DNA of 59,418 nucleotides from the NCBI GenBank assembly GCA_026988015.1, contig JALSMA010000022.1, positions 1-59,418 on the forward strand, written 5' to 3'. The DNA comes from Desulfobulbaceae bacterium (GTDB lineage Bacteria > Desulfobacterota > Desulfobulbia > Desulfobulbales > Desulfocapsaceae). The notes beneath the pieces are model-generated. The model had not been told where the DNA came from. It did not search any database and saw only the letters and a list, made by a program, of their open reading frames with translations. Of the stretch, positions 1,592-22,757 are shown one piece after another. A program made the position numbers and the translations under genes. Each line of letters begins with the position of its first letter. The stretch's first letter is position 1.

Positions 1592-4186
1592 TTAACTGGC
1601 AGTGAAAGTCAGTTCACCGCCACTCACGGCCACTAGGATTTTGCTCTCTTCGGGGAAAGTCCCTGCCAGGATCTCCATGGCCAGGGGATCCTCGAGGTGT
1701 CTCTGGATGGCCCTTTTGAGAGGTCTTGCTCCAAAGAGTGGGTTGTAACCACTTTCCACCAGCAGAGCTTTTGCCTTGTCGCTGATTTCAAGGGAGATCT
1801 TCTTGTCGAGCAGTCTGTTTTTCAATCGTTGCAGCTGGATGTCGATGATTCCAGACATGTCTTCCCGCGACAGGCTGCGGAAAATGATGGTTTCGTCTAT
1901 CCTGTTTAAAAATTCAGGTTTAAATTGCTGGTGCAGGATCTCTTCGATCTGGTTGGAGATATCTCTTTGGCTTTCTTTGTTTTCGGCCATTTTAATGATC
2001 AGGTCACTGCCTAGATTAGAGGTCATGATCATAATGGTATTTCTGAAATCTACAGTCCTGCCTTTACCATCTGTCATACGCCCGTCATCTAGTACCTGGA
2101 GCAGGACATTGAAGACATCCGGATGTGCTTTTTCGATTTCATCGAGCAGGATGACGGCATACGGTCGCCTTCGCACCGCTTCGGTGAGATATCCGCCTTC
2201 GTCATATCCAACGTATCCTGGAGGAGCTCCAATGAGCCTTGCCACGGAGTGTTTCTCCATGAACTCTGACATGTCTATGCGGATCATGGCCTGTTCAGAG
2301 TCAAAAAGAAAGTCAGCGAGGCTCCTTGCAAGTTCAGTCTTACCCACGCCGGTGGGGCCAAGAAAGATAAAAGAGCCAAGCGGCCTGTCTGGATCCTGCA
2401 GTCCTGCCCTGGCACGTCTTACCGCATTGGATACGGACTGGATGGCCTCTTCCTGGCCTATGACCCTCTTTGAGAGTTCATCTTCAGCGTGAACCAGTTT
2501 GTCTTTTTCGCCTTCAAGAAGTCTGTCTACGGGAATTCCAGTCCATTTTGCCACAACTGCAGCCACATCCTCACTACCAACCTCTTCTTTGAGCATCTGG
2601 TTATTTTCCTGGATCTCGTGAAGCTTGGCATTGGCACTGTCCAGCTTTTTCTGGAGTTCGACAATTTTTCCATAGCGAATTTCTGCGGCACGACTCAGGT
2701 CGCCGGAACGCTCAGCTTTTTGCTCTTCTATTTTGGCCTCATCGATCTCTTCCTTTGCCTGGCGGATGGACTGGATTATATCACGCTCAATGGTCCATTG
2801 CCCTTTGAGGGATGTCAGTTCGTCGTTGAGCTCGCCAAGTTTTCTGTTGACCTCTTCAAGTCGTTCTTTAGAGGGCTTGTCTTTCTCCTTTTTCAAGGCC
2901 TCTTTTTCGATTTCCAGTTTTATCTTGATTCGTTCAAGGTTGTCGATTTCTGCAGGCATTGAATCGATTTCGATGCGTAGTTTTGAGGCTGCCTCATCGA
3001 TAAGATCAATAGCCTTGTCCGGAAGAAAACGATCAGTGATATATCTGCTTGAGAGTGTTACTGCAGCAACAGTGGCAGAATCCTGGATCCGGACACCATG
3101 GTGCAGTTCGTACTTTTCCTTGATTCCGCGCAAGATGGCTATTGTGTCTTCCTCACTTGGCTCCTGAACCAGAACAGGCTGAAAACGTCGTTCAAGTGCT
3201 GCATCTTTTTCGATATATTTACGGTATTCGTCAAGGGTCGTGGCACCTATACAATGTAACTCTCCGCGGGCAAGCGCGGGTTTCAGCATGTTGGAGGCGT
3301 CCATGGAACCTTCGGCCGCACCTGCCCCAACTAGGGTATGGATTTCATCGATGAAGAGAATGATCTCTCCAGCTCGTTTTTCTACCTCTTTGAGTACCGC
3401 TTTGAGCCTGTCTTCAAACTCTCCTCTGTATTTTGCTCCTGCTATGAGAGCTCCCAGGTCAAGTGATACGACCTGTTTTCCATCAAGAGTTGCAGGGATA
3501 TCACCGTTTACGATTCGCAGGGCAAGGCCTTCGGCAATGGCTGTTTTGCCAACGCCGGGCTCTCCGATGAGAATGGGGTTATTTTTGGTCCGCCGGGAGA
3601 GTACCTGGATAATCCTGCGGATCTCCTCGTCTCTGCCGATCACAGGATCAAGTTTTCCCTGTCTGGCAATATCGGTGAGGTTCCTGGCGTATTTTTCGAG
3701 TGCCTGGTACTTTTCTTCAGGGTATTGGTCTGTTACCCGCTGGTTTCCCCGAATGGTTGTGAGAGCGTTGAGGAACGATTTTTCATCAATACCAAATTTT
3801 TTGAGCATCTTGGCGCTGGGTGATTTTCCATCCTGGATAATTGCCAGAAACAGGTGTTCCTGGCTGATAAAATCATCCTGCATCTGGCTTGCTGTATTGA
3901 ACGACTTGTCAATGATTTTGCGTAGGTCGTTTGATAGGTAGGCCTGTCCAGCGCCACTGCCACTGACCTGCGGGATTTTTGCTATAAGTTTTCCGGTTTC
4001 CATCAGAACGACCGATGGATCGATTCCCATTTTTTGAAGTACCGGGACAACTACACCTTCTGGCTGCTCCAGTATTGCTTTCACCAGATGTGAAATTCGT
4101 ATCTCTTGGTTGTTGCTGTTCTGGGCGAACTGTTGAGCTGCCTGGATAGCCTCTTGGGATTTAATTGTAAGTTTATCGAATTGCAT
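1592..4186 (-). CDS. clpB: ATP-dependent disaggregase ClpB
   Basis: An 864-residue Hsp100 chaperone of normal ClpB length. With DnaK/DnaJ it threads aggregated proteins through a hexameric cytoplasmic ring. Visible in order: the Clp N-domain (residues 1-145), AAA-1 with Walker A GEPGVGKT near 205 and Walker B ILFIDEIH, the long coiled-coil middle domain (about 410-525), AAA-2 with GPTGVGKT near 605 and [12 protein letters not shown], and the C-terminal D2-small domain. No ClpP-docking IGF loop is seen, which separates it from ClpA/ClpX. The ATG follows an AGGGGG ribosome site and the gene is followed by a strong terminator. It stands alone and is probably stress-induced. A TTGACA element lies about 120 bases upstream, but no clear sigma-32 site was found. 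Confidence 0.97.
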
Positions 4187-4312: not shown

Positions 4313-4361
4313 GTTTTTGGCAGGAAATTTGCAATAAGTGCTGTTATGCACTGTGAGGAAA

Positions 4362-4391
4362 GGTGGTGAATCCATGCCTGGATCCACCACC
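4362..4391 (-). terminator. Hairpin downstream of the selenoprotein gene
   Basis: A 12-bp stem with one mismatch (GGTGGTGAATCC with GGATCCACCACC) and a 6-base loop, 17 bases past the selenoprotein stop codon. On the minus strand the following bases (TTTCCTCAC) are only mildly T-rich, so it may be a terminator or an RNA-stabilising hairpin. Confidence 0.5.
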
Positions 4392-4408
4392 GGGAACAAC
4401 TGGCAGGA

Positions 4409-4753
4409 TCAGCCGCAGCCGCCGGACCCGCAGGAACCAGAGCTACATCCGCCACCACTACCGCTGATAGGGTTGGTGGAAGTGATTCCAAAACCTGAAC
4501 GGGGGCCAGCGTCGATAAACTCGACTTTTATGGCACCGCAGGTGTTCATTAATCCTTCTTCAACCAGGAATGTAAGATCATCCTGGTCATATACCTTGTC
4601 GTTATCTTTTGGCTCGTCCAGAGCCAATCCCAATGAAGGGCCTGCTCAGCCTCCCTGCATCAAGGCAATACGAAGGGCAGAACTGATATTGTTCTGTTCC
4701 AAGTATTCCTTGAGCTTTTCAACCGCTTGGTCTGTTACTGTAAAATCAGACAT
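4409..4753 (-). CDS. HesB/IscA-like selenoprotein (in-frame UGA read as Sec)
   Basis: A 114-residue HesB/IscA-fold protein if the in-frame TGA at 4646-4648 is translated as selenocysteine. The first 35 residues end in ALMQGG. The same frame then resumes with AGPSLGLALDEP, which is the continuation the family has after its first metal-binding Cys (GGC-AGPSLGLALDEP). Sec therefore replaces a conserved cysteine. The tail is Gly/Cys/Ser-rich (CSSGSCGSGGCG) and supplies further thiols. A hairpin fitting the bacterial SECIS rules lies just downstream of the TGA. The ATG at 4753 has a strong AGGAGG six bases upstream; the frame extends further upstream but without a ribosome site. Family members bind Fe-S or other metals; the exact role of the Sec form is unknown. 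The gene ends in a second TGA, which has no obvious SECIS. Confidence 0.87.
4609..4627 (-). promoter_or_regulatory. Bacterial SECIS element
   Basis: On the minus strand, a perfect 7-bp stem (TTGGCTC with GAGCCAA) closes a 5-base loop, TGGAC. The loop begins 26 bases after the in-frame TGA and has G at its second position. This meets the usual bacterial SECIS criteria: a loop 16-37 bases from the UGA and a G in the first two loop bases. It lies inside the coding sequence, as expected for SelB-dependent Sec insertion. Confidence 0.85.
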
Positions 4754-4881
4754 GAAAACCTCCTGTAAAATAAAAAAATAGCAAAGGAAAAACCTTTGTT
4801 TCGTTTGCCAATTGAAAATATCGTTATCTGGCCGATATGTCAGTTTGTACTTTTCATCATCGGTGAAAATGATATTATACA

Positions 4882-4909
4882 ATCATAATAACTCACTTAA
4901 AGATGTCAA
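4882..4909 (-). promoter_or_regulatory. Sigma-70 type promoter of the selenoprotein gene
   Basis: On the minus strand a perfect -35 TTGACA (4904-4909) is separated by 16 bases from TATGAT (4882-4887), a 5/6 match to the -10. The start site would be near 4875, giving a leader of about 120 bases. The 313-bp intergenic stretch 4754-5066 also has to hold the divergent pfkA promoter, for which I see no clear match. Confidence 0.65.
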
Positions 4910-5066: not shown

Positions 5067-6152
5067 ATGAAAAAAATAGTTATTTCCACTGGTGGTGGCG
5101 ATGCTCCTGGTCTGAATGCGGTGATTTATGCTGTGGTTCATGCCTGCTACAGAAGGGGATGGGAGGTGTATGGTAGTCGTAGTGGATACAAGGGACTGCT
5201 TGATATGGATGAGTTGCAGCGCCTAGATCTTTCTGATGTAGCTGATATCTACTCAACCGGAGGGACAATTCTTGGTTCTACCAATAAGGGTGACCCCTTT
5301 GCAATGCCCGTTGAAAATATTGCAGGGGAGGTAACAGTTGTTGATGTTTCAGATAAGATCCTGCACAACTTTAAACGAATGGGTTTTGACTGTCATATTG
5401 CCATTGGTGGTGATGGCAGTCTCGAAATTGCCCGAAAGTTTTCCGAGAAAGGGATGCCGGTAATTGGAGTTCCTAAGACCATAGATAATGATCTTGAAGC
5501 CACTGATCGGACCTTTGGATTTGACACTGCTGTTGCCACAGCCACCGAAGCTTTGGATAAACTCCACTCCACCGCAAAGTCCCATGATCGGGTTATGGTG
5601 GTGGAGGTTATGGGGCGGGATTCCGGCTGGATTGCGCTCTATTCCGGCGTGTCAGGAGGGGCGGATGTTATTTTGATTCCTGAGCTGCCCTTTGATATGG
5701 AAAAGGTCTGTGAAAAAATCATGGACAATGCGCTCCATGAAAAGGATTACGCCATTGTGGTTGTTGCAGAGGGGGCCGTTGCAGCAGGAGGTGAGGTTAT
5801 CAGTAAGGGGATGGCCGAAATTGGGCGAAGTGAGGTGCTGCTTGGTGGTATTGGTGAATGGGTTGCGTCTGAGATCAGGAAACGCACTGGAAAGGATACC
5901 AGGTCCCTGGTGCTTGGACATCTGCAGCGTGGTGGTTCACCGACAACGTTCGACCGGTTACTGGCAATGCGTTTTGGCGCAGCAGCTGTTCGACTCGTTG
6001 AAGAAGGTGTTTTCGGGCACATGGTCGCCTTGATCTCTCCGAATATGAGTTCTGTTCCACTTGAAGATGCGGTCAAATCACGAAAAAAAGTGGATCTTAA
6101 AAATGACAAAGTCTTTACTGCCCGTGAAATAGGTATCTGCCTGGGAGATTGA
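5067..6152 (+). CDS. pfkA: 6-phosphofructokinase (mixed ATP/PPi signature)
   Basis: A 361-residue PfkA-superfamily enzyme that phosphorylates fructose 6-phosphate at C1 in glycolysis, or runs reversibly if PPi-dependent. Motifs visible: the N-terminal glycine loop (STGGGDAPGLN), GGDGSLEIA near residue 113, the catalytic PKTIDND loop near residue 136, MGRDSGWIAL near 180 and the sugar-phosphate site LGHLQRGGSP near 292. The combination of GGDG (ATP-type Gly) and PKTIDND (the PPi-type Lys in place of Gly) is the mixed signature of the so-called group III enzymes. The phosphoryl donor therefore cannot be assigned with certainty. The ATG follows an AAGGAAAAAGG ribosome site. The endonuclease III-like gene starts 7 bases after the stop, so the two are likely one transcript. 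Confidence 0.9.
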   Translation: MKKIVISTGGGDAPGLNAVIYAVVHACYRRGWEVYGSRSGYKGLLDMDELQRLDLSDVADIYSTGGTILGSTNKGDPFAMPVENIAGEVTVVDVSDKILHNFKRMGFDCHIAIGGDGSLEIARKFSEKGMPVIGVPKTIDNDLEATDRTFGFDTAVATATEALDKLHSTAKSHDRVMVVEVMGRDSGWIALYSGVSGGADVILIPELPFDMEKVCEKIMDNALHEKDYAIVVVAEGAVAAGGEVISKGMAEIGRSEVLLGGIGEWVASEIRKRTGKDTRSLVLGHLQRGGSPTTFDRLLAMRFGAAAVRLVEEGVFGHMVALISPNMSSVPLEDAVKSRKKVDLKNDKVFTAREIGICLGD

Positions 6153-22681: not shown

Positions 22682-22757
22682 TGGTGGAGCTGAGGGGGAT
22701 CGAACCCCTGACCTCATGACTGCCAGTCATGCGCTCTCCCAGCTGAGCTACAGCCCC
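22682..22757 (-). tRNA. tRNA-Ala (anticodon GGC), CCA encoded
   Basis: A 76-base cloverleaf on the minus strand. The acceptor stem GGGGCTG pairs with CAGCTCC and contains the G3:U70 pair that is the identity mark of alanine tRNA. The D-arm reads TAGCTCAGCTGGGAGAGC, the anticodon loop CTGGCAG gives GGC, and the T-arm has GGTTCGATCCC. CCA is encoded at the 3' end. Confidence 0.97.

Follow-up and report, generated by a model that had tools for sequence, protein, structure and literature searches.

A predicted HesB/IscA-like selenoprotein with a conserved SECIS-type hairpin in a Desulfobulbaceae genome

The window analysed here, a stretch of 59,418 nucleotides from a Desulfobulbaceae bacterium, was found to carry on its minus strand (4409..4753) a gene for a HesB/IscA-like protein of 114 residues plus stop, in which an in-frame TGA at residue 36 almost certainly directs the insertion of selenocysteine (Sec). 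The gene, its recoding signature, the accompanying hairpin, the decoding machinery, the family and the predicted fold are all evident at the level of sequence, and the overall explanation that we favour, with fairly good confidence, is a selenoprotein of the IscA/HesB family (NF038090) working as an A-type Fe-S carrier. HesB-like selenoproteins have been known since 2005-2006, and the gene in the window is a well-supported further member. Judging by the accessible portions of the sources, HesB was already named among the known selenoproteins in 2005 (PMC1242214), Table 1 of a 2006 survey gave 11 HesB-like selenoproteins from Syntrophobacter, Desulfovibrio, Geobacter and others (PMC1794560), a 2007 scan placed the HesB family in Desulfovibrio vulgaris (PMC1914089), and reviews of 2022 and 2026 include HesB-like selenoproteins (PMC9312934, PMC13188914); the survey and the scan thus bear out the statement of a first-pass annotation of this DNA that Sec-containing HesB-like proteins are known in deltaproteobacteria. 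Searches of the open-licence literature returned nothing on NF038090, on IscA selenoproteins in Desulfobulb- taxa or on tandem HesB selenocysteine in Desulfovibrio.

The gene call is supported by the translation, by matches to the NF038090 and PF01521 models and by dN<dS on both sides of the TGA. Its ATG lies at 4753-4751, and when the TGA is read through, the minus strand from 4753 to 4409 gives MSDFTVTDQAVEKLKEYLEQNNISSALRIALMQGG-U-AGPSLGLALDEPKDNDK...GGGCSSGSCGSGGCG, followed by a TGA (4409..4411, minus strand). In frame 1, the plus strand of 4409-4753 encodes no HesB/IscA-like protein. The splitting of one frame by a TGA at 4646-4648, recorded at first reading, was confirmed on the minus strand (4648-4646), where this codon is that of residue 36. 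An AGGAGG ribosome-binding site (4759..4764, minus strand) stands 5' of the ATG, and further upstream a promoter-like site, TTGACA-16-TATGAT (4882..4909, minus strand), matches the consensus at 11 of 12 positions; the region holds three such sites against a shuffle mean of 1.6, which argues only weakly for this one. Downstream of the stop, a hairpin read by eye (4362..4391, minus strand) is possibly a terminator, its T run being weak here and the site unlisted by the scan; a hairpin with a T run occurs at the same post-stop place in relatives such as L052, L053, L061 and L063. The six best-ranked named records (L052-L057) encode a protein 93 to 98% identical over the matched part, and belong to MAGs called Desulfocapsa, Desulfobulbaceae or Deltaproteobacteria, which makes a host resembling the sulfur-metabolising Desulfocapsa very probable.

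Two further local features were observed. The leader at 4798-4772 (minus strand) was given by the scan as a small hairpin and T run ahead of the ATG, and a conserved leader attenuator was considered there and rejected, as by eye only close relatives (L052, L054, L055, L057, L058 and L060) looked similar and the deeper ones displayed were without it. On the plus strand, an antisense ORF of 147 codons (4338-4781) spans the entire Sec gene, and clustering placed comparable antisense frames in 24 of 89 loci; a gene caller could prefer this ORF over the interrupted true frame.

The codon at the Sec position was read in homologous copies from the collected loci, in which a phmmer search gave 115 domain hits, 113 with a readable codon, one gapped and one outside the alignment. 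These 113 copies count the window gene twice and some genomes twice, and the distinct proteins without that of the window number 100 (73 Sec and 27 Cys). It was found that the codon was TGA in 81 copies, TGC in 20 and TGT in 12, hence the aligned homologues have Cys at the TGA position in 32 of 113 cases, as the earlier annotation had claimed. Among 34 Sec copies (L052-L085) compared with the window, every comparison with a computable dS gave a lower dN than dS both before and after the TGA, with some dS values saturated and with the block before the TGA including two leader codons where the N terminus of the form is shorter. For instance, no nonsynonymous change separated the window gene from L052, with 5 synonymous changes before and 16 after the TGA, nor from L055, with 10 before and 23 after.

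The first stop after the Sec/Cys codon, from which the true stop of the window gene was assigned, was TGA in 79 of the 113 copies, TAA in 21 and TAG in 12, with one copy running off its contig. A second Sec at the terminal TGA (4411-4409) was also considered and was rejected, given that the stop near this place is TAA or TAG in 33 of the 113 copies and that, in several relatives, it is closely followed by a hairpin and a T run.

Just downstream of the Sec codon, a SECIS-type hairpin (4609..4627, minus strand) consists of a stem of 7 bp, TTGGCTC/GAGCCAA, with arms at 4627-4621 and 4615-4609, and a loop of five bases, TGGAC (4620-4616). The first-pass annotation had described a perfect 7-bp stem with a 5-base loop 26 bases after the TGA; the hairpin itself is real, but nucleotide 26 is where the loop starts, the 5' arm of the stem beginning at nucleotide 19. 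The loop contains a G, matching the bacterial SECIS feature of a G in a small apical loop, as given in the accessible part of PMC1088965. At the gathering threshold, the sole Rfam match in the 59,418-nt window was a tRNA (22685-22757), and the silence of Rfam at the hairpin was counted neither way.

Folding energy alone gave z = -1.86, with 9 of 200 shuffles folding as well, and as this was too weak to rely on, a comparative test was used instead. All of the inner six pairs were formed in 72 of 73 distinct Sec 51-mers (that of the window counted once) and five in the other, whereas of 27 distinct Cys 51-mers one formed all six and four formed five. Stem codons were correspondingly uniform in 75 distinct Sec genes (the window's own excluded), with GCT in 74, CTG in 75 and GAG in 74, whilst elsewhere in those genes GCT made up 21% of Ala codons, CTG 37% of Leu codons and GAG 33% of Glu codons. 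In one Sec copy (L097), both sides of a stem pair were changed, from C-G to U-A. By these comparisons, synonymous sites within the stem are frozen in the Sec copies, and the stem is mostly decayed in the Cys copies. The Cys copies that still have the stem are L031 and the second copy of L081, which matches the expectation for recent Sec-to-Cys changes; a stem remnant after such a change is likewise reported for a Desulfitobacterium HesB-like gene in the accessible part of PMC1794560. Together with the NF038090 match, the conservation of the hairpin upholds the original description of a HesB/IscA-like selenoprotein gene with a SECIS.

Machinery for Sec insertion was matched over cut-off in the host genome (99.8% complete), namely selA (597.3 bits), selB (375 bits), selD (374.1 bits) and the tRNA-Sec (76.1 bits), and the search for selA, selB, selC and selD that had been proposed as a check on the gene therefore came out in its favour. 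The selD frame of the host (L019) itself has an internal in-frame TGA near its start, hence selenophosphate synthetase is probably a selenoprotein too. A natural control for Sec decoding of the TGA is provided by one genus (G092, G139, G142 and G175; 95, 92, 93 and 78% complete), in which neither a tRNA-Sec match nor a selB above cut-off was obtained, the tRNA-Sec result for G175 being taken from its non-appearance among the listed matches. G139 had a selB match of 190.8 bits, below cut-off and with a TAA inside. The nine family copies listed for these four genomes, five of them over the family cut-off, are all without TGA.

There were also genomes that count against a strict pairing of TGA copies with Sec machinery. 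Under a strict filter, tRNA-Sec was unmatched in 24 of 193 genomes of the order, 12 of which were followed up. Six of these carry a TGA copy and yet gave no tRNA-Sec match; G145, G090 and G122 (94, 92 and 85% complete) were also without a match to selB, whilst selB was present in G131, G005 and G082, completeness across the six ranging from 85 to 98%. A TGA copy with no tRNA-Sec match was likewise seen in G058, G069, G075, G081, G042 and G159 (61 to 88% complete), which lay outside the selB search. Gaps in the drafts or missing contigs, together with the strict filter, are the likely explanation for TGA copies with no tRNA-Sec match.

Membership of the IscA/HesB family, with an IscA-type fold, is very likely. 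The protein scored 139.7 bits against NF038090 (IscA_HesB_Se; cut-off 85), with residues 4-105 aligned to positions 2-101 of the 101 in the model, and 132.5 bits in the genome search; in score and alignment this near-full-length match revealed no difference from the family, which is over cut-off in 182 of 193 genomes sampled from the order. PF01521 (Fe-S_biosyn) was also matched (32.1 against a cut-off of 26.3). Scores were below cut-off for TIGR01911 (HesB_rel_seleno; 50.7 against 66.35) and for the general carrier model TIGR00049 (55.1 against a curated 58.8, and 47.3 in the genome search), and far below for the IscA, SufA and ErpA models. Given the TIGR01911 score, by current models the protein belongs to the sister model NF038090. 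With the HesB-like selenoproteins of TIGR01911 it nonetheless shares the IscA-like domain and an occurrence in anaerobes including deltaproteobacteria, as described in the accessible portions of PMC1794560, PMC9312934 and PMC13188914, and where a table in the last of these gives their Sec motif as UxGP, the sequence here is U-A-G-P.

The predicted structural model had a mean pLDDT of 78.6, with a mean of 62 over residues 31-40 and values below 50 in the tail (99-114). It superimposed on E. coli IscA (1s98) with a Z of 12.5 and an rmsd of 2.5 over 93 aligned residues, and on SufA (2d2a) with a Z of 12.3 and an rmsd of 2.1 over 91. Residue 36 aligned with Cys35 of E. coli IscA (chains 1s98/1r94; position counted from the alignment), which we take to be a metal-ligand cysteine, and on that understanding the proposal that Sec replaces the first metal-ligand Cys holds. 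In its predicted fold, and in where its first ligand would stand, the protein thus resembles E. coli IscA, SufA and ErpA, whilst it differs from all three in having Sec in place of the first ligand Cys and in falling short of the cut-offs of their models, and its gene differs in not standing beside isc or suf genes within the window.

The Gly/Cys-rich C-terminal tail (4412..4447, minus strand) contains Cys103, Cys108 and Cys113. In an alignment of 46 sequences (that of the window and 45 chosen from 75 diverse ones), residue 36 and Gly38 were invariant, and the three tail cysteines were conserved to 90% or more across both Sec and Cys forms, the tail being gappy. The tail had been regarded at first reading as unusual and perhaps as a second thiol cluster. 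Neither suggestion was supported, in that its cysteines are family-wide and occupy the position of the C-terminal Cys ligands in IscA, and so it is more likely that they and Sec36 make up a single site. IscA-type carriers use three Cys as ligands, of which the last two form a CxC motif; the tail here instead has the spacing C-x4-C-x4-C, and this departure from three Cys with a final CxC counts against a carrier.

Cysteine content also varied amongst the copies. In 10 of the 27 distinct Cys 51-mers, a second Cys directly follows the Cys at the Sec position (the Cys copies of L097, L101-L105 and L107-L110), and at least four Cys occur in the last 28 residues of 21 of the 27 distinct Cys proteins, against 11 of the 73 Sec forms.

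A-type carriers coordinate iron or a cluster between their subunits through three Cys, on its way from scaffold to target proteins. A comparable role would here begin with decoding of the UGA at residue 36 by SelB and tRNA-Sec, aided by the hairpin just downstream. Sec36 and the tail cysteines Cys103, Cys108 and Cys113 would then jointly hold iron or an Fe-S cluster supplied by the NifU/NifS-type scaffold of the genome, and the carrier would pass it on to target proteins. A NifU_N scaffold protein is clearly encoded once in the host genome (172.3 bits), with another match barely reaching the cut-off, and the frame downstream of the NifU_N gene appears by eye to be a NifS-like cysteine desulfurase. 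We consider the carrier function reasonably likely; the insertion of Sec, the binding and transfer of a cluster and whatever advantage selenolate may hold over thiolate are inferred. Two further observations count against the carrier role, in addition to the spacing of the tail cysteines and the scores below the cut-offs of TIGR00049 and of the IscA, SufA and ErpA models. No Fe-S assembly genes were found among the eight neighbouring frames scanned in the window, and in Methanococcus maripaludis disruption of the HesB-like gene left nitrogen fixation unimpaired, according to an unpublished remark in the accessible part of a 2024 paper that calls the function of this selenoprotein 'not clear' (PMC11097638). 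For the A-type carriers of E. coli K-12, conditional lethality is described in an iscA erpA strain (PMC2682760).

An unlikely but not negligible alternative is that the protein is a selenol/thiol redox protein or sensor built on the IscA fold, which would form a selenenylsulfide between Sec36 and a tail Cys and hold no cluster. A tail that is possibly flexible, as its pLDDT of under 50 over residues 99-114 may indicate, and that carries three nearly invariant Cys would suit such a protein. However, the protein is predicted to fold like IscA, with Sec36 at the position of its first ligand Cys, and the sequence contains no UxxC or CxxU motif.

The genomic neighbourhood bears on a second alternative. 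Downstream of the Sec gene is a clpB-type chaperone gene (1592..4186, minus strand), whilst upstream lies a divergent 6-phosphofructokinase gene (5067..6152, plus strand); both were identified with Pfam, and members of the same BLAST clusters, which were built by single linkage and named from the window members, occur in 48 of 89 and 51 of 89 loci, respectively. As many loci are short, these counts are lower bounds. The recurrence of the clpB-type gene, and the soft metals that a soft selenolate with a Cys tail would be expected to bind, could point to a protein handling selenium or toxic metals/sulfide, such as a selenide or soft-metal binder tied to protein stress, and not Fe-S clusters. We think this improbable, as the 222-base gap ahead of clpB contains a terminator-like site, and as Cys-only forms persist in the genus with no detected Sec machinery, forms that selenium handling would not need. 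The reading of the TGA as a plain stop, a sequencing error or the mark of a pseudogene is scarcely credible beside its recurrence in 81 of 113 copies from many assemblies, dN<dS after it, the synonymously locked hairpin and the full Sec machinery.

Returning to the favoured interpretation of an A-type carrier, profile searches of the host genome with PF01521 and TIGR00049 (E up to 0.01) found no IscA-type match except the Sec gene; in 14 control genomes, PF01521 gave matches in 9 and TIGR00049 in 8. By these models, the only detectable A-type carrier of the host is the predicted selenoprotein. A single TIGR00049 match was obtained in 10 of 55 genomes of the host's family (G000, G033, G104, G131, G124, G163, G112, G202, G207 and G154), and when the ten were read one by one, nine proved to have the Sec form (the window, G104, G124, G112, G131, G163, G202, G207 and G154) and one the Cys form (G033). 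The '1 TGA' flag of the genome search was unreliable as a count of Sec, that of G033 having come from a terminal TGA. Since G163 (87%) and G202 (79%) are under 90% complete, another carrier may be absent from these two assemblies. G033 (L127), which belongs to the same genus, is assembled in 2 contigs and has a tRNA-Sec, encodes only the Cys form, hence the role does not require Sec throughout the genus. This Cys form has a Gly/Cys-rich insertion ahead of its GF motif. A genome with a selenoprotein as sole carrier was not met in the accessible portions of the HesB selenoprotein literature, none of our searches having been aimed at that point alone.

Sec and Cys copies were also seen to share a locus in 23 of 90 loci (some genomes having been fetched twice), in Desulfobulbales and Desulfovibrio-type records (L023, L037, L045, L047, L049, L051, L067, L079-L082, L086, L087, L097, L101-L105 and L107-L110). 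Such copies in one locus could be a selenium-dependent pair. A more speculative reading, which we rate as less likely than not, is that the selenoprotein is the sole A-type carrier here and in several family relatives, so that Fe-S delivery in these organisms would depend on selenium supply, and that elsewhere the closely placed Sec and Cys copies could serve as selenium-replete and selenium-poor versions of one carrier.

A genome that is 99.8% complete, with the Sec form as its only detectable IscA-type protein, offers a clean setting for asking what selenium adds, and makes a selenium dependence of Fe-S delivery testable. The Sec/Cys pairs and the Cys-only genus with no detected Sec machinery provide ready-made comparisons for the family.
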